Source: Gammaproteobacteria bacterium (GTDB taxonomy: Bacteria > Pseudomonadota > Gammaproteobacteria > UBA4575). Taken from it: a DNA stretch of 64,000 bases. The DNA is taken from assembly GCA_011523795.1 (NCBI GenBank), contig WTFY01000006.1:62001-126000 (forward strand), written 5' to 3'. Shown one piece after another: positions 29,602 through 48,368 of this stretch. Position numbers and translations under genes: made by a program. How positions within the stretch are numbered: the stretch's first letter is position 1; each line of letters opens with the position of its first letter. The notes beneath the pieces were generated by a model. That model saw nothing but the letters and a program-made list of their open reading frames with translations. It made no database searches and was not told the DNA's origin.

Positions 29602-29678
29602 TGCGGGGTGGAGCAGTCTGGCAGCTCGTCGGGCTCATAACCCGAAGGTCGCAGGTTCAAATCCTGCCCCCGCTACCA
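29602..29678 (+). tRNA. Initiator tRNA-Met (CAT)
   Basis: A 77-nt cloverleaf with anticodon CAT at 29636-29638. It has the initiator hallmarks: three consecutive G-C pairs in the anticodon stem (GGG...CCC), an A11-T24 D-stem pair and an unpaired first acceptor position. The T arm is GCAGG TTCAAAT CCTGC and the encoded 3' end is ACCA. Position 1 is T and position 72 is T, where the usual bacterial initiator has C1 and A72; the mismatch is kept but with other bases. The 3' part is the integration site of the following element. Confidence 0.92.
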
Positions 29679-29768
29679 TTTGGACTGTCCGAGAAGCTCC
29701 CAGGAAGTCCAGTAAAGTCCGGTAAACGTATTAAAAACAGTTAGTTAAAATAATAAAACGTATCATTG
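29655..29768 (+). repeat. Left attachment-site repeat (attL) of the integrative element
   Basis: Begins in the T arm of the tRNA gene (GTTCAAATCCTGCCCCC) and continues through ATTTGGACTGTCCGAGAAGC and TCCCAGGAAGTCC, an exactly matched block also found at 48260-48310. Beyond that, similarity with the right copy goes on, with substitutions, to ACGTATCATTG and more weakly to about 29793. Confidence 0.85.
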
Positions 29769-29854: not shown

Positions 29855-31090
29855 ATGCCCCTCACCAATTCCCGCCTCAAGGCAGCAAAGCCACGTTCCA
29901 GCGATTACCGAATAGCCGATAATGGCGGTCTTTTCTTGCTCGTCAAGGCGAATGGCAGCAAATACTGGCGTCTGGACTATCGTTTTCGCGGTAAGCGTAA
30001 CACCTTGGCATTGGGTGTTTACCCTCTGGTGAGTCTCAAGGATGCTAGGGAAAAGCGCAGGCACGCCAAGATTCATCTTGAGGCCGATCGGGACCCCAGC
30101 GAGGTCCGCAAGGAAGAAAAGCGAGCCAAGCAGGTGGATCGCTTTGAAGATGTAGCCCGTCAGTGGTGGGAGCATTACAAAGAAGTCTGGACTCCGAAGC
30201 ATGCAGCCAATGTATTCAGACGGCTGGAAGCCAATGCTTTCCAAGATCTGGGACATTTGTCCATTGATGAAATTACACCCCAGAGGGTCATTGTCATGCT
30301 TCGCAAGATTGAGGCACGGGATGCACTCGATGTGGCTAGTCGGGTCAAACAGGCGGTGCATGCTGTCTGCCGTTTTGCAATCCAGCAAGGCATAGCTACC
30401 CACAATCCGGCCAGTGACCTGGATGGCATTGTCCGGCAGCGCAAGGTCCGGCATCGTCCTTCACTGCCCAGGGAAGAACTGCCACAGTTCCTGCAGCTCC
30501 TTGAGACCTACAGCGATCGTGGCCGACTGTTGACTCAGCGTGCAATCAAGCTACTACTGCTGACCTTTGTACGCTCCGGCGAGCTGCGGGGCGCACGCTG
30601 GGAGGAGTTTGATTTCGAGGACAAAGTCTGGCGCATCTCCGCAGGCCGCATGAAGATGGGCAATGAACACCTGGTGCCCCTGTCCCGACAGGCCCTGGAA
30701 GTGCTTGAGCTGTTGCAGAGCATGACCGGCAACTACGAGCTAGTGTTTCCCTCCGAACGGGACCGCAGCCGCGAGATGTCGGACAACACGATGCGCCGGG
30801 CAATCTTCAAGCTAGGGTATGACGGGACCGTGGATGGCAAGAGCAAGGCAGTGCCGCACGGGTTCCGTGCTACCGCTTCCTCGATCCTGAACGAGTCCGG
30901 CTTCAACCCGGATGCCATCGAGCGTCAACTGGCCCACAAAGAAAGAAACAGCGTACGGGCGGCCTATACCTACCATGCCCGCTACCTAGACGAACGAAGG
31001 ACCATGATGCAGTGGTGGGCCGATTACCTAGACGAGATGCGGGCATCGGGCAAGGTGATTCCATTGTTCTCCAGGGCAGCCAACGGCTAA
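29855..31090 (+). CDS. P4-type tyrosine integrase
   Basis: 411 residues with the DUF4102 N-terminus of P4-like integrases (MPLTNSRLKAAKPRSSDYRI, GGLFLLVKANGSKYWRLDYR, LALGVYPLVSLKDAR), a SAM-like core-binding domain and the catalytic domain. Catalytic residues are visible in VRSGELRGARW (Arg), HGFRATASSIL (His-x2-Arg) and RAAYTYHARYLDERR (Tyr). It starts 177 nt after the tRNA and transcribes into the element, the usual layout for tRNA-targeting islands; it should catalyse integration and excision between the repeats at 29655 and 48260. Confidence 0.95.
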   Translation: MPLTNSRLKAAKPRSSDYRIADNGGLFLLVKANGSKYWRLDYRFRGKRNTLALGVYPLVSLKDAREKRRHAKIHLEADRDPSEVRKEEKRAKQVDRFEDVARQWWEHYKEVWTPKHAANVFRRLEANAFQDLGHLSIDEITPQRVIVMLRKIEARDALDVASRVKQAVHAVCRFAIQQGIATHNPASDLDGIVRQRKVRHRPSLPREELPQFLQLLETYSDRGRLLTQRAIKLLLLTFVRSGELRGARWEEFDFEDKVWRISAGRMKMGNEHLVPLSRQALEVLELLQSMTGNYELVFPSERDRSREMSDNTMRRAIFKLGYDGTVDGKSKAVPHGFRATASSILNESGFNPDAIERQLAHKERNSVRAAYTYHARYLDERRTMMQWWADYLDEMRASGKVIPLFSRAANG

Positions 31091-33404: not shown

Positions 33405-34271
33405 ATGAGAGACTTGAACTACAACTTGAAACAGCTCTGCAGGAACTGCAGAGAGGGCAGCTATGCCACCCAGCAGAACCGGGAACGGATATTGACTCAG
33501 GCCGCTGATGAGCTTCACCAGATGGGCTATCGCAGGATGCAGGCCAGGTCACTGAAGCCTAAGCACATCGAGGCCCTGGTGAAGCTGTGGCGGGAGAAGG
33601 ACCTGTCCATCGGAACCATAAAAAACAGGATGGCCGCACTGCGATGGTGGGCTACCAAGGTCAACAAGCTGAACGTCATCGCTAAGTCGAATGAGTTCTA
33701 TGGCATTCCGGACCGAAGGTTCGTAACCAACCAGAGTAAGGCTAAGGAACTCACCGAACCCCAGCTCAGTAAGGTCAGGGACGAACACGTCCGCATGAGC
33801 CTCGAGCTGCAGCGGGCCTTTGGTCTCAGGAGAGAAGAAGCCATGAAGTTTACTCCCAGCTATGCAGACCAGGGCGATCATATCCAACTGAAAGCGAGCT
33901 GGACGAAAGGTGGCAGGCCACGAGCCATTCCCGTTCGAACAGAACACCAGAGAGACGTCCTGAACCAGGCTCGGCGCTTGGTCGGCTTCGGCTCCCTGAT
34001 CCCGCCCCATCGAAATTACGCGCAGCACCTCAGGGTCTACGAAGGCCATACCACAAGGGCAGGCCTGTCCAGCCTGCACGGGCTGCGCCATGCCTATGCC
34101 CAGGAACGCTACGAGGAACTGACCGGCTGGAAGTGTCCGGCCACCGGAGGCCCCGGAAGAGAAGCCCTGAGCCCGGAACAGAGAGAACTGGACCACGAGG
34201 CCCGGCTGACCATCAGCCAGGAGTTGGGCCATGAGAGATCACAAATAACGACAGCCTACGTAGGAAGATAA
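33405..34271 (+). CDS. Second tyrosine recombinase (integrase-domain protein)
   Basis: 288 residues with AAGGAAAG before the ATG. The N-terminal half is a SAM-like DNA-binding domain (KPKHIEALVKLWREKDLSIG, TIKNRMAALRWW). The C-terminal half carries tyrosine-recombinase residues: Arg in FGLRREEAMKF, Lys in SWTKGGRPR, HGLRHAYAQ, then ELGHERSQITTAYVGR with the presumed nucleophilic Tyr four residues from the end. It is unlike the P4 integrase at 29855 and resembles recombinases found inside integrative and plasmid elements. It runs straight into alpA. Confidence 0.8.
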   Translation: MRDLNYNLKQLCRNCREGSYATQQNRERILTQAADELHQMGYRRMQARSLKPKHIEALVKLWREKDLSIGTIKNRMAALRWWATKVNKLNVIAKSNEFYGIPDRRFVTNQSKAKELTEPQLSKVRDEHVRMSLELQRAFGLRREEAMKFTPSYADQGDHIQLKASWTKGGRPRAIPVRTEHQRDVLNQARRLVGFGSLIPPHRNYAQHLRVYEGHTTRAGLSSLHGLRHAYAQERYEELTGWKCPATGGPGREALSPEQRELDHEARLTISQELGHERSQITTAYVGR

Positions 34272-34273
34272 CC

Positions 34274-34495
34274 ATGAAGATTGAAACGGGAAAAAGTATG
34301 AGGAATCTACCCATAAACTACAGGATTGTAAGATTGAAGGAGGTCCAGCGCATGACCGGACTTTCCCGCTCTACCATCTATGCCCAGATTGCAAGGGGCA
34401 ATTTCCCGAAGCAGATCAGGTTGACCGGTGCCCGTTCGGTGGGCTGGCATGAACAGGCAGTGATCCAGTGGATCGAGTCTAGGAAGCAGGCATGA
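34274..34495 (+). CDS. alpA: AlpA-family HTH regulator/excisionase
   Basis: 73 residues, 2 nt behind the recombinase, with GGAAGA before the ATG. The MerR-like HTH is plain: RIVRLKEVQRMTGLSRSTIY, then AQIARGNFPKQIRL and GWHEQAVIQWIESR. AlpA proteins activate integrase expression or help excision of P4-type elements. A dead homologue lies at 31111-31298. Confidence 0.9.
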   Translation: MKIETGKSMRNLPINYRIVRLKEVQRMTGLSRSTIYAQIARGNFPKQIRLTGARSVGWHEQAVIQWIESRKQA

Positions 34496-34516: not shown

Positions 34517-34894
34517 ATGCATTTCAATGTCAGGTCCCCATACAGCTATTTTTCCTACACAGCGGCGTTGTCTGCCTTCAAGATAAAGCTAAGAACTAGT
34601 TTTTCCGGCGCTGTCCCAATGTGGGAATTTATGCGGTTGTTCGGATTAAACTTTGTTGTCCCAGCCTTTGATCGGGAAGCGAATCATCCCATCTACGTCG
34701 GCGAACTTCCTATAGGTTGGGAGATACCAACCGTACACGGCCTGCCGACCTTCACCAATTTTTATCTCAGCGGTGTCCTGCGTCATTCTTTCTGCTTCAT
34801 CTTGGGCAGGCAGAAAACCCAAAGAGCGTTCGGTGACTTATCTACCATGTACGTACTACTAACTCCTCTGTCTGAATACGGTGTACAGCGTTAG
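34517..34894 (+). CDS. Uncertain hypothetical protein, 125 residues
   Basis: No family recognised and no clear ribosome binding site. The 3' end overlaps the convergent methylase gene by 53 nt. Composition is ordinary for a protein (aromatic-rich, MWEFMRLFGLNFVVPAF), so it may be a real or truncated gene, but the evidence is weak. Confidence 0.3.
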   Translation: MHFNVRSPYSYFSYTAALSAFKIKLRTSFSGAVPMWEFMRLFGLNFVVPAFDREANHPIYVGELPIGWEIPTVHGLPTFTNFYLSGVLRHSFCFILGRQKTQRAFGDLSTMYVLLTPLSEYGVQR

Positions 34895-35681
34895 CAGCCA
34901 GAACACTAGAACGGTTTACTACATCAAGCCTCCCAATTCCACTGTATATTTCCCTAACTGAAATGTGGTTGGCATTGGTTACAAGGACTTGAGCACCACG
35001 ACTAGAAGCCCTTTCTACTGCATCACGTAACCGTATCTGATCTGTCCATGAAAAGATTTTATCATTGTATTTGAGGAATCCGTTGAGGTTATGATTGACC
35101 GTGTAGGGCGGGTCCACAAAAACAAAATCCTCTGGGCCTGCAGCCTCCATCGATTCTTCGAAGTCTCGACAGATAATTTCTGCATTTAACAAAAGTCTAC
35201 CAATTTTGGCAAAATTATCAGTTGACAGAACTACACTATTTTTTGAACCAATTGGTACGTTAAATTCATTGCTCTTATTAACTCGGTAAAGCCCGTTCCA
35301 GCAAGTGCGGTTTAGGTAAATTAACCACACTGCCCTCCCTATTGAGTCCGTTGGTTTTGAAGATCTGGTGTGATAGAAGTAATCCTTGCTATGTGCGTTA
35401 TGGTGCTTAAGGAGCTTTTTAGTAATGGATTCTGGATCTTCACATATCGCTTGAAAGCAATCGATCAAATCGGAGTTTATATCCGAAAGAATAGCCTTTT
35501 TTGGCTGAAGTGCAAAAAACATAGCTCCACTACCTAGAAATGGTTCGATATATCGCTTATAGCGAGTTGGAACCATATCGAGGTAACGCGAGGTGAACCA
35601 ACGTTTGCCACCGGCCCATTTTAGAAATGGAACAACCTGATCACCAGCTGAGAAGTTAGATAAAGTACCACCAGAGTTCAT
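34842..35681 (-). CDS. D12-class (Dam-like) DNA adenine-N6 methyltransferase
   Basis: 279 residues from the ATG at 35681, which overlaps the upstream gene stop as ATGA. Family motifs in order: FLKWAGGKRW (SAM region), EPFLGSGAMFF (motif I), YLNRTCWNGLYR, and the catalytic DPPY in FVFVDPPYTVNH. It should transfer a methyl group from SAM to adenine in a short recognition site, perhaps GATC-like as in Dam, but specificity cannot be read. It is the last gene of a three-gene operon with the unknown protein and the DGQHR protein. Confidence 0.92.
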   Translation of the reverse strand: MNSGGTLSNFSAGDQVVPFLKWAGGKRWFTSRYLDMVPTRYKRYIEPFLGSGAMFFALQPKKAILSDINSDLIDCFQAICEDPESITKKLLKHHNAHSKDYFYHTRSSKPTDSIGRAVWLIYLNRTCWNGLYRVNKSNEFNVPIGSKNSVVLSTDNFAKIGRLLLNAEIICRDFEESMEAAGPEDFVFVDPPYTVNHNLNGFLKYNDKIFSWTDQIRLRDAVERASSRGAQVLVTNANHISVREIYSGIGRLDVVNRSSVLAANAVHRIQTEELVVRTW

Positions 35682-37027
35682 GATGGGCACAGACTCCAAA
35701 TCGCAACGCGCTCATGGCTCGCCAATACACTTAGTTCGCGTGCCAATTCTAAGGCTATGCCACTGAAAGAATCAAACAATTCCGGGTCTCGACTTTCGAC
35801 TTGAGCAAGCTCGACGAGGCTATCTTGGACGTCTGTCCACAAGTCATGCAACTCGGACGGAGGATGTCCAGGTGGCCAAATGCCACAGCTTTCACCGAGT
35901 TGCTTCCACCAGAATGCTAAATGATCGGCATTTATGTCAGCATTTTCGAGTAGACGGTGGGCTGTACCAGTCGCTAGTCGAAGTAAAAGCAGGGCACGTG
36001 AAACTACAGCTAGGGAATCTTCCCAGATATTACTAGGTACCCTGGATGAGTATTTGAAAACTAAGGGATCAGCAGGAGAAATTTGCCTACATAAGAATCT
36101 CTTGATGCGTCTTTTCGCTGAGGGTTGTAAACTCAATCCAGTTAAGAACCTGTCGATCAATTTCTCAAACTTAGAGTCACCACTGCTAGCTTGTTTGCCA
36201 GTGGATCCAAAATAAAATTGCTCGATAGAGAGCCGAAGGATATGTCGGTCTATCTGCTCAAAGCTTGATGTTGTGCTTGGTTCGAGCAATCCCCACATGT
36301 CACGGACAAATTCTAAGCAAGCCGCAGCATTTGCTTCCCAGGTAACAGGTACACCATCAGGACGGTAGCTAGATTCGTTACGAGCATCTCGATCCTTAGT
36401 GACTAGCCTAAGATCCATTCCCCATTGCATAAACCACTCTTTTGCGTGGGGAGCCACTGCAATAGCACCACCCTGCGATTGAAACCATTGATTGAGACTG
36501 TAACTGTCAGGTCGAATAAGTTCGGCAAAGGCATCACGGGACTCTGCCATTTGAGCCCATTCCTCTAAGGCGAGCCATGCCATAAGGTGAGTCCCTTGAC
36601 CCGAACATAACTTTGTTGCCGAATTGGCCTGTTGGACAATGAAGTGTTGATTGTTGAATATTCCAATTCCAAAGCCTGCTAAGAGTGACATAGCAGCTCG
36701 TAACTCGGCATAGTAGGCGAGGTGCAGGGCACGATGTGTGTCACCGGTCAAAATACATCCTACAGCTCGGCCAAGGTAACTCCAGCCGTCTTTAGCATGA
36801 AGTGTCACACTTGCAGCGATGTATTGCGCTAGATTGCGTTTGTGTTGTGGCGTTGCTGGAGTGGCTCTCTCTAACCGAGAGATTGTATCTTTGGCGTAGT
36901 AGTTATTTTTACCGACCCAAGATGATTTACCAAGGAATATCTTTAACCCAGCTACTGTTGATTCAATTTCTGCTTGCCTTACATTACTAATTGCAGTCTT
37001 AGCGCTTTGAGACAACGCTGCCGTCAT
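35678..37027 (-). CDS. Unknown protein between DGQHR and methylase genes
   Basis: 449 residues, soluble, mostly helical by composition, with no motif I can name. Notable blocks are AYYAELRAAMSLLAGFGIGI, WLALEEWAQMAESRDAF, DRHILRLSIEQFYFG and TGTAHRLLENADINADHLAF. Start and stop both overlap the neighbouring genes by 4 nt (ATGA), so it is translationally coupled in an operon with them and probably works with the methylase. The codon use is AT-richer than the nuo region, as for the whole block. Confidence 0.8.
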   Translation of the reverse strand: MTAALSQSAKTAISNVRQAEIESTVAGLKIFLGKSSWVGKNNYYAKDTISRLERATPATPQHKRNLAQYIAASVTLHAKDGWSYLGRAVGCILTGDTHRALHLAYYAELRAAMSLLAGFGIGIFNNQHFIVQQANSATKLCSGQGTHLMAWLALEEWAQMAESRDAFAELIRPDSYSLNQWFQSQGGAIAVAPHAKEWFMQWGMDLRLVTKDRDARNESSYRPDGVPVTWEANAAACLEFVRDMWGLLEPSTTSSFEQIDRHILRLSIEQFYFGSTGKQASSGDSKFEKLIDRFLTGLSLQPSAKRRIKRFLCRQISPADPLVFKYSSRVPSNIWEDSLAVVSRALLLLRLATGTAHRLLENADINADHLAFWWKQLGESCGIWPPGHPPSELHDLWTDVQDSLVELAQVESRDPELFDSFSGIALELARELSVLASHERVAIWSLCPS

Positions 37028-38568
37028 GTCTGCCCCAATAACCGTTTTGCGACACCCGCAATTTCTCCTTTCTCCTTGGTAAGATGCTCAAGCAACTGAA
37101 TACGAATCTCCTTATATCCGCCACTTCCGCGGAACACCAGTTTAGCTCTCCGAAGTTCTTCTTCTAGTCCTGGTGCAGAACTAGACCGCCAATCAAACGA
37201 CACAAGGCGTTCACAAACTTGGGTAACAAAACTTGAGAATTTCTGCTCCTGTAATGACTTAAGTGAACTTTCCACTGTACTCTCAAGATCTGAACTTAAC
37301 CTGTCATCCGGTCGCCAATCACCCAAGTTCAATTTACCCGCTCGAAAGTAAAAAATGTCGTTCAGCACATGTAAAAAACCCCGAACGCCCTGATCAGTTG
37401 TAATAAGTGAATGCGGGCCATAAAACGCGAAATCCTTGCGCGGATCTAAGCCTTTGCTTTTCCGCGACTGGGACGCAGTTTGTTTGGCAATTTCCCGTAA
37501 ATCCTCCGCCCACTCGGACTCCGTTGCTGAGATTGCAGCCCGAAACTGGCGCCACGCGAAAATAAGAAATGCTGCTTGTTGCGCTCGGCTCCAGCCAAGA
37601 ACTTCTCCTTCCTGACGAGAACGACCTCCAAACAATCCTCCACTCCTCTTTGAGTGCCTACTATCCCAAGAACGGACAAATGTCGCTGACAAGGACTTAA
37701 TCCAAGCACTTTGAGTCACCCACCTATTATTGCGCTCCCCAAGCATATTTATCCTGTCATACCAGGGGCTCTTTGGAAATGACCACAACACCTCGGTCAA
37801 CTCTTGGGCTCGCGTTTCTCGATATACGATGTGACTCTCCTCCTGCTCAAGCCAATTTTCGCTCCTGAGAAGCGGATAGAGATCAAATGCCAAGCTGGGG
37901 TTGATGCGTTTAGGTTTTATGTTGATCGTCCAAAACAAATAAGCCTGCCAGCTTATGTCTAGCCCGACAAAGGCTACAACTGGGAGTTCGAAGTCTTTTA
38001 ACTTCGTAGCACTGTCAAATGCCCAAAGACGATGTTGCCCATCGATAACTTCGAAAGGTGGCAACTGTTTCGGTGACCAGTCAGAACTCCAGGTATCGTA
38101 GGGAAGTCGAAGTTGTGTAGTCCCATTAACGTCTACCAGTGACACTAGGTCCGAATTGGCCACGGTGCTTCCATAACGCTCGTCACCTTTAGTTAAGATA
38201 TTGAGTACAATTGCTGTTGGAAGCCAACCAGGTTTTCGAAGATTGTTAAAGTTTGTGCTTGCCCGCTTGGTCTCGCTCAGCGTTGACCAAGGAAAACCAT
38301 ACTCGACAAATCGGCTGATTTCTTCCGATCGCTTCGAATCGTGCTGTCGCTGAATACCAAGATCCTTTGTCCTCGGTGTTGCATCCTTGGCGACTCGTCT
38401 AGCAATACCTGAAAGGCTTCTAAGCTCTCGAGCAGAAAGTGAAAATAAGTAGAAATGTTTTTCTGGCTTGGAGCGGTATTCATCTGAATCGAAATCAATT
38501 TTATTCCAACCCGGTAACCACTGACGGACTTTCAATACGGGTACTAGGCTGTGTTGTCTTGTGCTCAT
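37024..38568 (-). CDS. DGQHR-domain protein (DndB/ParB-like fold)
   Basis: 514 residues. The signature VIDGQHRLWAF sits at about 174-183, preceded by RSEEISRFVEYG and GWLPTAIVLNI, and followed by FWTINIKPKRINPSLAFDLY, the arrangement of DGQHR proteins related to DndB and other DNA-modification-linked families with a ParB/sulfiredoxin-like core. About 300 more residues, rich in Arg and Trp, have no recognised domain. It is the first gene of the operon; two ATTCTAGGAT repeats lie 27 and 62 nt before its ATG. A role in DNA modification or restriction is inferred from the family and from the adjoining methylase. Confidence 0.8.
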   Translation of the reverse strand: MSTRQHSLVPVLKVRQWLPGWNKIDFDSDEYRSKPEKHFYLFSLSARELRSLSGIARRVAKDATPRTKDLGIQRQHDSKRSEEISRFVEYGFPWSTLSETKRASTNFNNLRKPGWLPTAIVLNILTKGDERYGSTVANSDLVSLVDVNGTTQLRLPYDTWSSDWSPKQLPPFEVIDGQHRLWAFDSATKLKDFELPVVAFVGLDISWQAYLFWTINIKPKRINPSLAFDLYPLLRSENWLEQEESHIVYRETRAQELTEVLWSFPKSPWYDRINMLGERNNRWVTQSAWIKSLSATFVRSWDSRHSKRSGGLFGGRSRQEGEVLGWSRAQQAAFLIFAWRQFRAAISATESEWAEDLREIAKQTASQSRKSKGLDPRKDFAFYGPHSLITTDQGVRGFLHVLNDIFYFRAGKLNLGDWRPDDRLSSDLESTVESSLKSLQEQKFSSFVTQVCERLVSFDWRSSSAPGLEEELRRAKLVFRGSGGYKEIRIQLLEHLTKEKGEIAGVAKRLLGQT

Positions 38569-39031: not shown

Positions 39032-41857
39032 TTAATCCACTCCATCGATAAATGTCTCAACAAAACCCTTGATATTTTCAGTAATGCGCTCTGCAAAAGG
39101 AAGGCGTTCCCTGAGCTTTGGTTTTGTATGCGCAATGGCAATTACTGCATCCGGCAAGGGTGTCTTTTCAGTGAACAGATAATCTCCGATCACCCGCTGT
39201 AACCCCTCCACATCCAGCCCTTCCCCCTCACTCAAAGCCTGGATGGCCTTATGCTTCTCTTCCGTCCAGTACTGCTCGAACGCTGCACCTACATCACCTT
39301 CTTTCGGTATCTCGGGGAAATGCTCGGCAATGAATCGTTCAATCAGTTCTTTCTTGCTGTGTAGTTGAGCTTCAGTCTCCAGAATCTTGATGATTTTCTC
39401 ACATTCTTTTTCCTGTTCTTCAGGTTTGGCAGATTGCATGTTACGCAGCAGGGCAATGATATAACTGACGTTGATCTCATCTCGATGAATCAACTCCAGT
39501 TCGAAATCTATGTCATCTAGGATCGATACCTTTTCCTTTTGCCGGTTGGTTTTAACCTTGTCATACAAATCCAGGTACTTGCTCTTGTAGTCATCGAAAC
39601 ACTGCTCATCCATGGCCAAATCACCAAAACTGAACTCGGTAAAGCAGTTGAGTACATTTTTGATCCGGATCAGTTCACGAAACGCCTGGATGAACTTCAT
39701 TTCATCTTCTTCAGTCAGCAGTTCATTGACACTGTCCACAGTCGGAGCAATCTTCAGTAGTTCATTGACTGCCTCAGCAAACTTCTCCACATATTTCTCA
39801 TAGGGTTCCAGGATGACTTCTTCGATGGCTTTCTTGTTCGCAAACAGCTCGATCGCCTGGTCGGTGGCCGGCTTGAGGTTGCGAAAGCACACCACGTTGC
39901 CCTGTGACTTCTTTTGCCCCAGGATGCGGTTGGTGCGCGAATAGGCCTGGACCAGACCATGGTACTTGAGATTCTTGTCCACATAGATGGTATTGAGTGA
40001 TCTACTGTCAAAGCCGGTCAGGAACATGTTCACGACCAGCAGGATGTCAATTTGCCGCGACTTGACCTTTTTGCCGATATCCTTGTAATAGCCATAAAAT
40101 TTGTCGGTGGAGAAGTTGGTCCCGAAGGTCCCGTTATAATCTTGGATGAAGCTTTCCAGCTTGTCGCGGCTGTGCTGGTTGACATATCCGTGTGAAACAT
40201 CGGTGACATCCGTCTCAAGATTCCCGTCGGCATCCTGGTCGTCCTCATTGACCCGGTAGGAGAAGATCGTGCCGATCCTGAGATTGTGCTCTTTGGCGGC
40301 TTTCTTCTGTTTGAACAGTTCATAGTACTTGATCAGAGTCTGGATATTGGCCACACAGAAGATGGCTGTGAACTCCCGGGCATGGGTCTTGCGGTTATGG
40401 TTTTTAATGATGTAGTCAGCGATCAAATCCAGCCGCTCGTCCGCTTCCATGACCTCAGCCGTATCAATGGCCTCGACTTCAATGTCCCGGACTTCGTCTT
40501 TAATTTTAACAGTGCGGATGTACTCCACCGAGAACTTGAGCACGTTCTCATCCCGGATCGCATCGGTGATGACATACTTGTGCAGGCATTCGTTGAACAG
40601 GTCTTTGGTGGTGCGTTTGCCATGAACGTTGGTCGAGGAGTTCTCGGCAAAGATCGGGGTGCCGGTAAAGCCGAACATCTGGACCCTGGGGAAGTATTCT
40701 CTGATTCTCTTGTGCATGTCTCCGAACTGGCTGCGGTGACATTCATCAAAGATGAAGACCATGCCCTTCTCTTGTAAAGGAGCCATGGTTTTTTGGTACC
40801 AGTCCTTGCTGATGGCCGTGTTCAGCTTCTGCAGGGTGGTGACGATCAAAGAGATGTCATCGTCGCCGAGCTGTGCCACTAGTTCTTTCGTGTTGTTGGT
40901 GGCATCTACACTGCCTTCTCTGAAGCTGTTGAACTCCTTGATGGTCTGGTAGTCGAGATCCTTGCGATCCACCACGAACACAACCTTGTGCACGTGTGGG
41001 GACTGGGTGAGGATCTGGGCCGTCTTGAATGAAGTCAGGGTCTTGCCGGATCCGGTGGTATGCCAGACATACCCGAACTTCTCGCTGTTCTTCACCCGCT
41101 CGACGATCGCCTCGACCGTATGATACTGGTAGGGACGCAATACCATCAGCCTTTGTTCGCTTTCATTCAACACGACGTACTTGGTAATCAGCTTGGACAG
41201 CTGGCACTTCTCCAGGAACACCTCGGCAAATTCGCTGAGCTGGGTGATCTTTTTATTGGCAGAATCGGCCCAGAAAAAGGTTTGCTTGAAATCCTGGTTG
41301 GCTACAGGGTTATTGGCATAGTACTTGGTATTCACCCCATTACTGATGACAAAGAGTTGAATGTATCTGAACAGGCCATAACCTGCGGCAAAGGAGTGAC
41401 GGTGATAGCGGTTGGTCTGATTGAAGGCTTCCCGGAGTTCTAGGCCTCGGCGTTTGAGTTCAATCTGGACCAACGGCAAACCATTGATGAGCAGAGTCAC
41501 GTCATAACGGTTGGCGTAGGTGCCGTGCATGGTGACCTGATGGGTCACCTGGTATTCATTCTTGCACCAGTGGATCTGGTCGATCAGTTCAAGATATCCG
41601 ATCGTGCCGTCCTCTTTAGTGTAGTCCACCTTGTCGCGCAAGATCTTGGCTCTCTCGAAGATATTGCCGCGGGCAAGCTTGTTTAATACCTGCTTGAACT
41701 CCTGGTCGGACAGGCTTGTTTGGTTATGTTTCTCGAGCTGGCGTTTAAGGTTTTCAATCAGGTCCTTTTCATCCTTGATGTGTACCTGTTCAAAACCCAG
41801 GGTTTCCAGCTGGGCAATGAGCTTGTTCTCTAAGGCTTGTTCAGATTCAGTAGTCAT
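39032..41857 (-). CDS. hsdR: Type I restriction endonuclease subunit R
   Basis: 941 residues. The N-terminal PD-(D/E)xK nuclease is seen as D119 and E133-L-K135 (RYDVTLLING and QIELKRRG). A superfamily 2 motor follows with Walker A TTGSGKT (266-272), DECH (370-373), GFTGTP and later helicase motifs (LVVNMFLTGFDSRSLNTIYV, QAYSRTNR). The C-terminus binds the modification complex. With HsdM and HsdS it should translocate and cut unmodified foreign DNA. Its ATG overlaps the stop of the Abi_C-type gene by 4 nt. Confidence 0.95.
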   Translation of the reverse strand: MTTESEQALENKLIAQLETLGFEQVHIKDEKDLIENLKRQLEKHNQTSLSDQEFKQVLNKLARGNIFERAKILRDKVDYTKEDGTIGYLELIDQIHWCKNEYQVTHQVTMHGTYANRYDVTLLINGLPLVQIELKRRGLELREAFNQTNRYHRHSFAAGYGLFRYIQLFVISNGVNTKYYANNPVANQDFKQTFFWADSANKKITQLSEFAEVFLEKCQLSKLITKYVVLNESEQRLMVLRPYQYHTVEAIVERVKNSEKFGYVWHTTGSGKTLTSFKTAQILTQSPHVHKVVFVVDRKDLDYQTIKEFNSFREGSVDATNNTKELVAQLGDDDISLIVTTLQKLNTAISKDWYQKTMAPLQEKGMVFIFDECHRSQFGDMHKRIREYFPRVQMFGFTGTPIFAENSSTNVHGKRTTKDLFNECLHKYVITDAIRDENVLKFSVEYIRTVKIKDEVRDIEVEAIDTAEVMEADERLDLIADYIIKNHNRKTHAREFTAIFCVANIQTLIKYYELFKQKKAAKEHNLRIGTIFSYRVNEDDQDADGNLETDVTDVSHGYVNQHSRDKLESFIQDYNGTFGTNFSTDKFYGYYKDIGKKVKSRQIDILLVVNMFLTGFDSRSLNTIYVDKNLKYHGLVQAYSRTNRILGQKKSQGNVVCFRNLKPATDQAIELFANKKAIEEVILEPYEKYVEKFAEAVNELLKIAPTVDSVNELLTEEDEMKFIQAFRELIRIKNVLNCFTEFSFGDLAMDEQCFDDYKSKYLDLYDKVKTNRQKEKVSILDDIDFELELIHRDEINVSYIIALLRNMQSAKPEEQEKECEKIIKILETEAQLHSKKELIERFIAEHFPEIPKEGDVGAAFEQYWTEEKHKAIQALSEGEGLDVEGLQRVIGDYLFTEKTPLPDAVIAIAHTKPKLRERLPFAERITENIKGFVETFIDGVD

Positions 41858-42480
41858 GCTTCTTCAGGATTATTTTCCAAAGTGTAATCCCCCAGGTACA
41901 TCGCATAGGTCTCAGGTTCTTGTTCAAACAGTGCCTTGCTGTACATCACCTTTCCGTCCAAAGGGTACAAACCATCCAGATAGTTATTGAATGCTTCGTT
42001 CTTGTCATACCTGATCTCATCCTCTGTGAGAGCATCCAGTTTTCGCAGCATGTATGTACACAGGCTGTCGGTCATGCCAATCACCATCTCTGACAAGTCC
42101 GCATCGTTGACCTGTTCCTTGAATGAAGCCCTGCCGTGACTAATATCACCATGCTGGTTTCTCAGCTCCGCAAGATAGTGAACGATTGAACCCAGCCGAT
42201 TGGTCAAGTCCGCATCAAAGAATCTGTCTCTATCCTCCAGTGCAGAAAGGGCTTGCTTGAACAAACTTTGACAATCCCGGTATTCATCCAGAACATGGAG
42301 CGGCTCCTGCTTCAGCGAAGCAATGACTAGCTTGGAGATTCCTTCAATGACAGATTTACACGTTTCAATCGTGATATCAGGCTTCTCATCAACGTGCCCC
42401 TCAATGACATCAAGCAGGCTGTTGTAGTATTCAAGCCTGTATTTTTGAATCCTTTTGATTTCCCTCCTTACTCTTTCCAT
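41854..42480 (-). CDS. Abi_C-like (abortive-infection family) protein inside the hsd operon
   Basis: 208 residues, helical. The block ITIETCKSVIEGISKLVIAS followed by LAELRNQHGDISHGRASF resembles the abortive-infection C-terminal (Abi_C/HEPN-like) domain, where an RN...HG.xHG pattern is conserved. The N-terminal 30 residues are a basic helix (MERVRREIKRIQKYRLEYYN). It lies 12 nt behind hsdS and overlaps hsdR, so it is made together with the restriction enzyme. A backup abortive response or a regulator of restriction are both possible. Confidence 0.6.
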   Translation of the reverse strand: MERVRREIKRIQKYRLEYYNSLLDVIEGHVDEKPDITIETCKSVIEGISKLVIASLKQEPLHVLDEYRDCQSLFKQALSALEDRDRFFDADLTNRLGSIVHYLAELRNQHGDISHGRASFKEQVNDADLSEMVIGMTDSLCTYMLRKLDALTEDEIRYDKNEAFNNYLDGLYPLDGKVMYSKALFEQEPETYAMYLGDYTLENNPEEA

Positions 42481-42492
42481 GTGTGATTGAAA

Positions 42493-43647
42493 CTATACAA
42501 ACATTTGCTGGAACAGCCCTTTCTTGAAGATCTGGGCTTGTTTGATCTGTTCTGTGACTAATTCGATTTTTTTGTCAATCATAGATAGGAAGCTGGCAAT
42601 CTTTTGCTGTTCTTTAATATCCGGTGCGCTGAATGAGATTTTCTTCATCTCGCCCTTACTGATTTCAAGAAAGGTTGAACCGTTCGCTCTGCGTAAAAAC
42701 TGTTTTTTATTTTTAATAATCCAATAATAGATATATTCATTTGAAAATAGTAAGTCATTCACAATAAATGACTGAAAACCTTGGTTAGTGGTGCATTCTT
42801 TACGAGCAATACTCACTTCACCTATGGTAGCCCTGCTAGTGAACAATATAGTTCCTACAGGCAATAATGTTGCAGATGATTTAGCCAAACCTTCTTTAGA
42901 AATTTTGCGAATGCTATTTCCAGAGTATTTAAATTTAATTTCTGTGGGAGTAAACCAAAGAATATCTCCATTCCACAGATTTTGTTTATTAGTGTCAGGT
43001 GTGCCTCCTCCAGTTATTTGCCCAACACAACCTAATTTCTTTTCTTCCCAATCCGGATAATCTTTCCCCTGCTCATCCTTAAACCGAATTTCCTGACTGA
43101 AAAGCTTCTGCATCATGCCTTTCTTATACTGCTCCAGTAAGGATTTCTTTTTGCTTAATTGTTCAATCTTGGTATCGACGGATGACAGGAAGGCGGCAAT
43201 TTTTTGTTGTTCTTCTAGTGACTGAGAAATGAAAGCTTTACTTCGGTGCACATCATTTCGGTTTAAGGTAGGGACAGTTGAGCCTGAGTTATATCTCTCA
43301 AATCGAATTTGGTTGTAAAAGTAGTAAATGTATTTTGGGTCATTACCGAAAAAATCTGTCACCCATAAAGTTGTATTGTGTGGCCAAAAACTTTCATCAA
43401 CAAAAGTGACTTCCCCTATTGTTCCTGACCTACCAGTAATAACACCCGGTCCTTCAATCTTAAATTCATTATGGTGTCTTAGAATTCCATTTGAATACAC
43501 TACGGGGTACTTTCCGTCTTTAATTTGTGTTGTTGGCAAGTCAAAGCCTCTTTGAAGAGGAGCAATATTTTCAACCTTCCTACTTGCCCATTTCTCAAGA
43601 AATTCAGGAAATCGCAAAACTGGCTTTTTCTGCTGAGTTTCTGTCAT
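42493..43647 (-). CDS. hsdS: Type I restriction specificity subunit S
   Basis: 384 residues built as two halves. Each half has a target-recognition domain followed by a conserved coiled-coil: EEQQKIAAFLSSVDTKIEQL after the first and KEQQKIASFLSMIDKKIELV after the second. Each domain reads one half of a bipartite DNA site; the site cannot be inferred. A typical WASRKVENIAPLQRGFDLP start and DWEEKKLGCVGQITGGGTP second-domain start are visible. Confidence 0.94.
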   Translation of the reverse strand: MTETQQKKPVLRFPEFLEKWASRKVENIAPLQRGFDLPTTQIKDGKYPVVYSNGILRHHNEFKIEGPGVITGRSGTIGEVTFVDESFWPHNTTLWVTDFFGNDPKYIYYFYNQIRFERYNSGSTVPTLNRNDVHRSKAFISQSLEEQQKIAAFLSSVDTKIEQLSKKKSLLEQYKKGMMQKLFSQEIRFKDEQGKDYPDWEEKKLGCVGQITGGGTPDTNKQNLWNGDILWFTPTEIKFKYSGNSIRKISKEGLAKSSATLLPVGTILFTSRATIGEVSIARKECTTNQGFQSFIVNDLLFSNEYIYYWIIKNKKQFLRRANGSTFLEISKGEMKKISFSAPDIKEQQKIASFLSMIDKKIELVTEQIKQAQIFKKGLFQQMFV

Positions 43648-43663
43648 AAATTACTCTTTATTA

Positions 43664-45226
43664 TCAAAACGGACTTCCTATCCCTAGTTCCTTGCAGAAC
43701 CCTGCAATGGTTTTGTCCGTTTCCTGCATATCTGCCTCCAGTGCTTTTAAGTCTTCAGCGACTGCGCTAAGATTTACAGGTTTTTCTTCTTTAAAGGTAT
43801 CCACATACCGTGGAATATTCAGGTTGAAATCGTTCTGCTTGACCTGATCCAGACTAGCAACATAGGCATACTTGTCGATGGATTCTCGTTTTTGGTACGC
43901 ATCCACAATCTTTTCAACATGTTCATCCGTGAGGGTGTTCTGGTTTCCTGATTTCTCAAAATGCTGTGAAGCATCAATAAACAGAATATCGTTGTCATGT
44001 ACACGACACTTCTTCAACACCAGTATGCATGCAGGAATACTGGTCCCATAAAACAGGTTGGCCGGTAACCCAATCACAGCATCCAGATAGTTCTGTTCCT
44101 GGATAATGTATTTTCGTATTTCTTCTTCTGCAGTCCCCCGAAACAGCACTCCATGAGGCAGTACCACTGCCATCGTTGCATTCTCTGCCATCTGGTAGAT
44201 CATGTGCTGGACGAAGGCAAAATCCGCCTTGGTCTTGGGGGCTAGCCTGCCGTACTGACTGAACCGGTCATCGGTTTCGTAGAGCAGGTTATCCTTGCCT
44301 TTCCATCTGGCCGAAAAGGGCGGATTGGCCACGACGGCTTCAAAGCGATCATCCAGATGTTGTGGATACTCAAGCGTATCCTCCTGTCTGATATCAAACT
44401 GCCTGAAATGCACGTCATGCAGGATCATGTTCATGCGACAAAGGTTGTAGGTGGTCCGATTGAGTTCCTGCCCAAAGAACTCACTGACCTCGGCCTCCTT
44501 GCCAATCCTCAGCAGCAGTGAACCCGAACCGCAAGTCGGATCATAGGCGCTCTTGATGCGCGGTCTATCCAGCGTGACGATCTTGGCCAGGATCTTGGAG
44601 ACCTGTTGCGGGGTATAGAACTCTCCCGCCTTCTTGCCTGCACCGGATGCGAACTGGCCGATCAGATATTCATAGGCATCCCCCAGCACATCGGAGTCAG
44701 ATTCCTCCAGCCCAAAATCGATCTTGCCCAGATGCGCCAGAACTTTTGCAATGAGTGTATTACGGGCATCAGGAGTACGGCCTAATTTGGTGCTGCCCAA
44801 ATCCAGATCCTCGAACAACTTGTTGAAGTCATCCTCGCTTTCCGTGCCCATTGTGCTGGACTCGATATTATTGAGAATGATCTGTAAGTCTTCGAGAATG
44901 AAATTGCTTTTCTCTTCGAGATCAGCGTTGCCCTTGGCAGTGATGGCAGAAAACAACTCATCCGGTGCAAGGAAATAGCCAAGCTTCAGCAATGATTCTT
45001 CACGAATCGCATCAATATCCTCCTCATCCGTAACATCACAGTAATCCTTGACTTCCTCGGTTTCTAACAAAGTGTTGGCATAGAGATGTTGTTTTTCAGA
45101 AAGGTACTTGTAGAACACGAACCCCAGAATATAGTCACGGAACTCGTCCGCATCCATCTTGCCACGCAGCTCATTGGCAATGCTCCAGAGTTGCCTCTGC
45201 AACGTTTGTTTCTGGTCTTCTGTCAC
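43664..45226 (-). CDS. hsdM: Type I restriction-modification methyltransferase subunit M
   Basis: 520 residues. Helical N-domain (LWSIANELRGKMDADEFRDY), then SAM motif I DPTCGSGSLLL (229-239) and the adenine-methylase motif IV NPPF (301-304). GEFYTPQQVSKILAKIV is diagnostic for HsdM. It methylates adenine in the host site together with HsdS. First gene of the hsd operon; 16 nt to hsdS. Confidence 0.96.
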   Translation of the reverse strand: MTEDQKQTLQRQLWSIANELRGKMDADEFRDYILGFVFYKYLSEKQHLYANTLLETEEVKDYCDVTDEEDIDAIREESLLKLGYFLAPDELFSAITAKGNADLEEKSNFILEDLQIILNNIESSTMGTESEDDFNKLFEDLDLGSTKLGRTPDARNTLIAKVLAHLGKIDFGLEESDSDVLGDAYEYLIGQFASGAGKKAGEFYTPQQVSKILAKIVTLDRPRIKSAYDPTCGSGSLLLRIGKEAEVSEFFGQELNRTTYNLCRMNMILHDVHFRQFDIRQEDTLEYPQHLDDRFEAVVANPPFSARWKGKDNLLYETDDRFSQYGRLAPKTKADFAFVQHMIYQMAENATMAVVLPHGVLFRGTAEEEIRKYIIQEQNYLDAVIGLPANLFYGTSIPACILVLKKCRVHDNDILFIDASQHFEKSGNQNTLTDEHVEKIVDAYQKRESIDKYAYVASLDQVKQNDFNLNIPRYVDTFKEEKPVNLSAVAEDLKALEADMQETDKTIAGFCKELGIGSPF

Positions 45227-48259: not shown

Positions 48260-48368
48260 GTTCAAATCCTGCCCCCATTTGGACTGTCCGAGAAGCTCCC
48301 AGGAAGTCCTGTAAAGTCCAATAAGCGTCTTTAAAACAGTAAGTTAGAATAAAAAAGACGTATCATTG
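48260..48368 (+). repeat. Right attachment-site repeat (attR) of the integrative element
   Basis: Carries GTTCAAATCCTGCCCCC, lacks the next six bases (GCTACC) present on the left, then ATTTGGACTGTCCGAGAAGC and TCCCAGGAAGTCC, then a diverged continuation to ACGTATCATTG. The missing bases include the acceptor 3' end and part of CCA, so this copy could not end a functional tRNA. Together with 29655-29768 it encloses an element of about 18.6 kb. Confidence 0.85.

Follow-up and report, generated by a model that had tools for sequence, protein, structure and literature searches.

A mobile three-gene operon pairs a DGQHR protein and a helical protein of an unnamed family with an exchangeable DNA-modification enzyme: a probable defence module

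Results

Organization of the operon and of its island

In the window, by which the whole stretch of 64,000 nucleotides that was analysed is meant, three open reading frames on the minus strand form an operon that encodes, in the order of reading, a DGQHR protein, a helical protein (hereafter the middle protein) and a D12 adenine methylase (Table 1). Both junctions are ATGA overlaps. The first one, between the DGQHR and the middle gene, reads '...cagacATGAcgg' (37027-37024) and the second one, between the middle and the methylase gene, reads '...cccatcATGAact' (35681-35678). The methylase comprises 279 residues when read from the ATG at 35681 and 285 residues when read from an alternative TTG start 18 bases upstream of it. 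Counted from this farthest start, the middle and methylase genes overlap by 22 bases, and the same overlap was found again in five relatives. A promoter scan near the operon gave matches at chance level.

The operon is located in an att-bounded island of 18.6 kb with a G+C content of 0.47 versus 0.58 and 0.51 in the flanks, and the density of GATC is equal inside and outside the island. At its left end the gene of a tyrosine integrase is the next one after tRNA-Met, the 3' end of which is part of the att repeat. A gap of 463 bases separates the operon from the R gene of a type I restriction-modification (R-M) locus, and the operon reads towards the pair of AlpA and integrase genes on its other side. 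HsdS of this locus was assigned by Pfam, and the HsdR-like protein clusters with the Pfam-confirmed HsdR of locus L020. The initial annotation had described a three-gene operon with two ATGA overlaps in an att-bounded element beside a restriction system; the reading frames, both junctions, the repeats at the tRNA end, the integrase and the type I R-M neighbour are all present.

The island carries several other genes. A protein with an Abi_C domain is encoded between the HsdR-like and HsdS genes. The second integrase, which is unrelated to the first one, and the AlpA-type regulator point at the trio, and two nested elements may thus make up the island. A trypsin-like serine peptidase with an N-terminal extension is encoded between both integrase genes. 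At the right end lie two further reading frames, for which Pfam gave no significant match.

Table 1. Features of the island, with positions in the window.
Feature	Position	Strand	Basis or remark
tRNA-Met	29602-29678		tyrosine-integrase gene next after it
Left att repeat, 3' end of tRNA-Met and beyond	29655-29710	.	17 + 35 exact bases common to 48260-48309
Island integrase adjoining tRNA-Met	29855-31090	+	PF00589, PF13356, PF22022
Trypsin-like serine peptidase, 361 aa	31434-32519	+	PF13365
Second tyrosine integrase, 3' side of operon	33405-34271	+	PF12834/PF12835
AlpA-type regulator/excisionase	34274-34495	+	PF05930
Dam-type D12 N6-adenine DNA methyltransferase	34842-35699	-	Pfam, NCBIfam, PADLOC; conserved motifs
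Middle protein, 449 aa, unnamed family	35678-37027	-	no library match; AlphaFold; conservation in 26 sequences
DGQHR protein, 514 aa	37024-38568	-	TIGR03187 and PF14072 above cut-offs; AlphaFold model
Type I R-M locus: HsdR, Abi_C-domain protein, HsdS, HsdM-like	39032-45226	-	neighbour of operon
Abi_C-domain protein, 208 aa	41854-42480	-	PF14355
Open reading frame, 454 aa	45538-46902	+	
Open reading frame, 289 aa	47083-47952	+	
Right att repeat	48260-48309	.	matches 29655-29710

The methylase

The methylase, named a D12 adenine methylase from the outset, scored 175 bits against Pfam MethyltransfD12 and 235 bits against TIGR00571 dam (cut-off 115), and in PADLOC it matches generic MTase_II models. 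It keeps the DPPY and FxGxG motifs; by its motifs it is an intact Dam-family D12 enzyme with predicted activity. A comparison of seven trio methylases showed that all of them retain K9, N120, R124 and P134 of E. coli Dam and that six retain L122. We take this set to include contacts with GATC, which suggests a GATC-like target. The gene is the sole D12 gene found in its genome.

The DGQHR protein

The DGQHR protein scored 74.6 bits against TIGR03187 (cut-off 58.9) and 30.7 bits against PF14072, the DndB family of Pfam (cut-off 29.1), the latter match covering the N-terminal half only. The motif itself occupies residues 176-180 and is invariant in 24 sequences. With 69.5 bits the protein stays far under the cut-off of the TIGR04172 equivalog (450), and with 30.3 bits under that of the DpdB equivalog NF041060 (300); PADLOC-DB 2.0.0 returned a weak match to DpdB only (30 bits). 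Neither dnd nor dpd genes were found among the island reading frames examined.

In the AlphaFold model of the protein (pLDDT 78, pTM 0.64), residues 36-222 were aligned by VIA-align with ParB CTPase structures in the top seven rows (Z 5.2-6.4, rmsd 2.6-3.8), where a Z of about 6 alone means little and the weight comes from seven related proteins agreeing over the DGQHR domain. SspE appeared lower among the structural matches of this domain (Z 3.1). As the seven matches agree with the published assignment of DGQHR and DUF262 domains to the ParB/Srx fold (PMC4619093), residues 36 to 222 or thereabouts model as a ParB/Srx-type NTPase domain. The remainder (residues ~230-514) consists mainly of helices; it contains conserved Trp, Arg and Gln residues and has a tail of the form DWR(T/S)...K...RGxxGY.

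The middle protein

For the middle protein no match was obtained in Pfam, NCBIfam or PADLOC with the single sequence and no credible match in Pfam or PHROGs with 22 members of its family; the PDB sequence profile, Foldseek (PDB, BFVD) and VIA-align gave no credible match either. The initial annotation could name no family for it, and in every library searched this remained the case. The AlphaFold model is confident (pLDDT 89.4, pTM 0.91) and all-helical except for one beta hairpin. The structure predictions proposed at that stage thus yielded a helical fold without a match in the PDB for this protein and a mostly helical C-terminal part for the DGQHR protein. Near-invariant in 26 middle sequences are H77, D80, W82, H102, Y105, Y106, R110, T146, H147, D205, R216, N217, S220, Y221 and R344. 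The near-invariant polar residues suggest a functional site, and such a pattern would be expected of an active site or a tight interface sooner than of a free scaffold.

Conservation of the DGQHR-middle pair

By tblastn the trio was recovered on a Zymomonas plasmid and a Rhizobium plasmid. Profile searches yielded 17 genome loci and the first loci on viral contigs, and an independent search with the DGQHR protein yielded further viral-contig loci, each of them also with the middle protein and a D12 methylase. After removal of duplicates 33 distinct loci were left, the window included, which span Alpha- and Betaproteobacteria, Binatota, a cyanobacterium, a methanogen, plasmids and prophages. 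The search for the same trio in other genomes, as advised in the initial annotation, thus revealed a conserved unit, and this rules out a chance assembly of the three genes. At these 33 loci each full-length DGQHR protein of this type is accompanied by the middle protein, mostly directly adjacent. Both are present in 32 of the 32 loci whose contig reaches both; L004 is cut near the contig end and its DGQHR gene lies outside the view. In the genomes sampled the family is rare, with 2 of 369 genomes of the class and 2 of 398 of the phylum, the window's own genome included. In the phylum sample the long type of DGQHR protein was confined to the two genomes with the middle protein, and nine other genomes had short partial DGQHR matches only.

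Two loci, L021 and L051, have an interrupted DGQHR reading frame next to a middle frame that is still open. For L021, a Brevundimonas locus (G642 is the same genome and both were taken as one locus), a natural split at the domain boundary was considered and rejected, because the frame changes inside a conserved stretch, which points to a broken copy or a sequencing error. On the viral contig of L051 (4001-8883) about 2.2 kb lie between the broken DGQHR gene and the middle gene, as if by insertion.

The distances among DGQHR proteins and those among middle proteins are correlated with r = 0.96 over 24 loci, a value that is inflated by kinship and of a kind that any operon moving as a block would show too; none of 5000 permutations was as high, and within each methylase class the correlation is 0.95-0.99. 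The main split and most of the inner groups are common to both trees.

A constant fourth gene, such as a hidden nuclease, was not found: every other gene cluster is confined to 5 or fewer of 25 loci, and most of the recurrent ones that were checked encode recombinases. Next to the trio, L003 (10310-11821), L007 (10235-11746), L016 (10564-13281) and L019 (4317-6161) encode large proteins of 503-905 aa that have no Pfam match. In an all-against-all comparison they did not group with each other.

Exchange of the modification enzyme

The third gene is of the Dam-type D12 family at 15 loci (window, L002, L005-L011, L025, L029, L044, L045, L046 and L051) and of a second D12 family of 376-404 aa at 14 loci (L003, L004, L015-L020, L022-L024, L031, L048 and L049). 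An MT-A70 enzyme with a DPPW motif is found at one locus (L021), Dnd phosphorothioation genes are found at two (L013 and L014), and at one locus (L012, Candidatus Binatus) no modifier is linked to the pair. In L025, L046, L021 and L014 the orientation of the modification gene is convergent instead of co-directional. On either tree, that of the DGQHR or that of the middle protein, the type of modification changed at least six times, and the Dam-type enzymes of Zymomonas and L029 sit within a clade that otherwise has the second D12 family. Together with the tree structure shared by the DGQHR and middle proteins, these changes indicate that the pair is the unit of descent and that the modifier is swapped. 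Judged by gene content, the constant core consists of the DGQHR and middle proteins and the modification enzyme is an exchangeable slot.

The pair of Candidatus Binatus is intact and located among housekeeping genes, and two D12 genes are present elsewhere in that genome. In Pseudanabaena, dndC, dndD and dndE follow the pair on the same strand, with a Pbe-like gene further upstream; in Methanoregula the pair faces dndA at a contig end, and a stretch with dndB and dndC is found on another contig. A role of the pair as a substitute for DndB was rejected, as a separate DndB-family gene is present in both Dnd-linked genomes. This implies that the pair is an addition to the phosphorothioation genes and not their usual DndB. 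Because the slot is taken by, or linked to, such genes in two lineages, the connection with Dnd-type pathways that the initial annotation had drawn from the DGQHR identity, an identity borne out by TIGR03187, is a genomic fact beyond analogy.

Genomic context at other loci

Type I R-M genes lie beside the trio in the window and in L020, and Dnd/Pbe genes in L013. The trio is prophage cargo in L023, which has a terminase and an integrase, in L024, where it lies at a viral contig's end, downstream of a tail-fibre gene, and in L025, where it is positioned between primase and tape-measure genes. Several chromosomal loci have resolvases or integrases no more than 8 kb away. Defence genes are known to accumulate in prophage hotspots (PMC9122126). 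The context of the trio, i.e. an island beside type I R-M genes, Dnd/Pbe genes and cargo positions in prophages, is of the defence type.

Discussion

Comparison with known systems

DndI and SspE, the characterised proteins with the closest logic, are NTPase-gated, mark-sensing nucleases with a related DUF262 domain and a motif of the DGQQR type, for which the motif or the NTPase arginine is needed (PMC11662687, PMC13251355): the R87A substitution in DndI lowers phage resistance and abolishes discrimination, and R133A in SspE abolishes defence (PMC11662687, PMC13251355). The trio resembles SspABCD-SspE and DndBCDE-DndI in that a ParB/Srx-type domain with a DGQxR motif adjoins DNA-modifying enzymes and is proposed to act as a mark-gated NTPase (PMC11662687, PMC13251355). 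Unlike SspE and DndI, it has no HNH, DUF1524 or DUF262 match in Pfam, its mark would usually be 6mA made by a D12 methylase, and it includes an extra obligate helical protein. With DndB and other DGQHR proteins (PF14072, TIGR03187) it shares the DGQHR motif, a score barely above the cut-off of Pfam DndB and the linkage to dnd genes in two loci. It differs from DndB by some 280 extra C-terminal residues in the DGQHR protein, by the constant helical partner, by a methylase as the usual third gene and by the fact that both Dnd-linked genomes have separate DndB-family genes besides it.

In fused GmrSD a helical linker of 200-400 residues joins the DUF262 domain (a ParB/Srx NTPase with a DGQQR motif) to HNH (PMC4619093), and the DGQHR protein likewise has a predicted ParB/Srx NTPase domain followed by a helical region. 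However, GmrSD, a type IV restriction system, attacks modified invader DNA and has HNH, whereas the trio brings its own modifier and has no HNH. As in type II R-M systems, the operon combines a solitary-type DNA methylase with partners that might attack DNA lacking the mark, but the trio contains no restriction endonuclease that is recognisable by Pfam, NCBIfam or PADLOC, and its pair is constant while the methylase family changes.

A probable defence module

The trio is probably a modification-based defence module that is built around a new protein family. Several points favour the defence reading, among them that the third slot, where filled, always concerns DNA modification. Arguing from architecture, i.e. 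from the likeness to SspE/DndI and GmrSD, we infer the following mechanism. The methylase, or another DNA-modifying enzyme in relatives, would mark the host's own DNA. The DGQHR protein would bind and hydrolyse a nucleotide in its ParB/Srx domain, with an activity that is set by the DNA mark, and together with its obligate middle partner it would act on DNA or on the infected cell if the mark is absent or wrong, so that phages would be restricted. The damaging activity would most likely reside in the middle protein or in the C-terminal helical domain of the DGQHR protein and use an active site of a new kind. The DGQHR domain and the helical region might correspond to the first two parts of GmrSD; the effector would then come from the middle protein or be concealed in the C-terminal region. 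For this full reading, a mobile and modification-gated defence module with a mark-sensing, NTP-gated pair, we consider the chances evenly balanced. Somewhat more tentative is the idea of a reader and effector core without commitment to a single mark: the helical protein would have a new fold and an active site of a new kind, and together with the ParB-type NTPase it would be joined to chemically unrelated marks, either 6mA, made by three methylase families, or backbone phosphorothioate, and would attack unmarked DNA or cells.

Several points count against the defence reading. Neither Pfam, NCBIfam and PADLOC nor conservation revealed a nuclease motif in any of the three proteins, in agreement with the initial annotation, to which no nuclease was visible. 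The pair of L012 has no linked modifier, the DGQHR gene is broken in L021 and L051 next to an open middle frame, and any operon that is transferred as one block would give correlated trees. The initial annotation had put forward an undescribed defence or DNA-modification system of three genes; the conserved unit and the defence context speak for it, but the methylase is not a constant partner and is exchanged.

No description of a trio of DGQHR protein, middle protein and modifier was found in the open-access papers that were searched. The passages on DndB, HEPN, Dam and ParB in a survey of Dnd gene neighbourhoods have nothing resembling the trio (PMC10853773). If the defence reading is true, neither PADLOC (2023 version) nor the open-access papers found contain this type of defence, and its protein family, perhaps its fold too, is recognised by none of the libraries searched. 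The exchange between methylase and phosphorothioation genes beside a constant pair would then open to test the general question how one sensor-effector pair can respect self-marks of different chemistry. DGQHR proteins, which are widespread and poorly understood, would gain a concrete system for study.

Alternative explanations

The trio could be a modification complex without restriction, in which the pair regulates or targets where, when and how much the linked enzyme modifies and in which the output is an epigenetic mark. We regard this as rather unlikely. It would agree with the place of the DGQHR protein in the DndB/DGQHR group and with the lack of a nuclease motif in the trio proteins, and DndB is described as an ATP-modulated negative regulator that limits phosphorothioation (PMC10853773). 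The Dam-type and second-type D12 enzymes look complete and may need no helper. On the other hand, one pair serves unrelated modifiers, which makes a subunit for dedicated contacts less likely, and the pair occurs once without a linked modifier (L012). The separate DndB-family genes in both Dnd-linked genomes imply that the pair is not simply the DndB regulator of the Dnd genes there.

It is decidedly unlikely that the trio acts by abortive infection or as a toxin-antitoxin system, in which the middle protein would damage the cell by an enzymatic activity (as an unusual RNase or a nucleotide-degrading enzyme, for instance), would be restrained by the DGQHR protein, would be released when a phage disturbs methylation or methylation is lost, and would have the cell as its target. 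The conserved polar residues on a helical fold are consistent with such an enzyme, and HEPN RNases are reported from Dnd neighbourhoods (PMC10853773). By eye the blocks YYAxLRAAxSxLA and RNxxSY of the middle protein look HEPN-like, and a HEPN identity was considered and judged unlikely because the Rx4-6H motif is not conserved: in no more than 11 of the 26 middle sequences does any R column have an H at +5 to +7, and the invariant block is RNxxSY. None of the 22 family members matched HEPN in Pfam, and there was no HEPN chain among the Foldseek and VIA-align matches of the whole model, nor any fold match in the PDB. An hhalign comparison with the window's own Abi_C protein, the sole one made, was negative, and the PF05168 members in relatives were too few for a useful profile.

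Self-service of a mobile element, in which the methylase protects the DNA of an island, plasmid or prophage from host restriction or aids its replication and the DGQHR protein and its partner aid maintenance or transfer, would suit the presence of the trio in prophages and on plasmids and the ParB fold of the N-terminal domain but is highly improbable, since the pair of L012 is also found among housekeeping genes, an exchange of a base methylase for Dnd genes is ill-suited to protection from one host enzyme, and maintenance needs no modification enzyme.

The trio on a Zymomonas plasmid

A complete trio is carried by plasmid pZZM405 of Zymomonas mobilis CP4 (L002, NC_013788.1), the record of which is labelled ZM4. 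Strain CP4 is industrial and non-pathogenic. The plasmids pZZM401-405 derive from strain CP4 via a strain mix-up (PMC5930841). The methylome of ZM4 has CAGN4CTG, GAAGN7TCC and GANTC as its only motifs (PMC8432527); it was considered as evidence against an active trio methylase and was dropped because the plasmid belongs to CP4 (PMC5930841). Near the trio, pZZM405 has a DarTG-like pair of a DUF4433 gene and a macro-domain gene.
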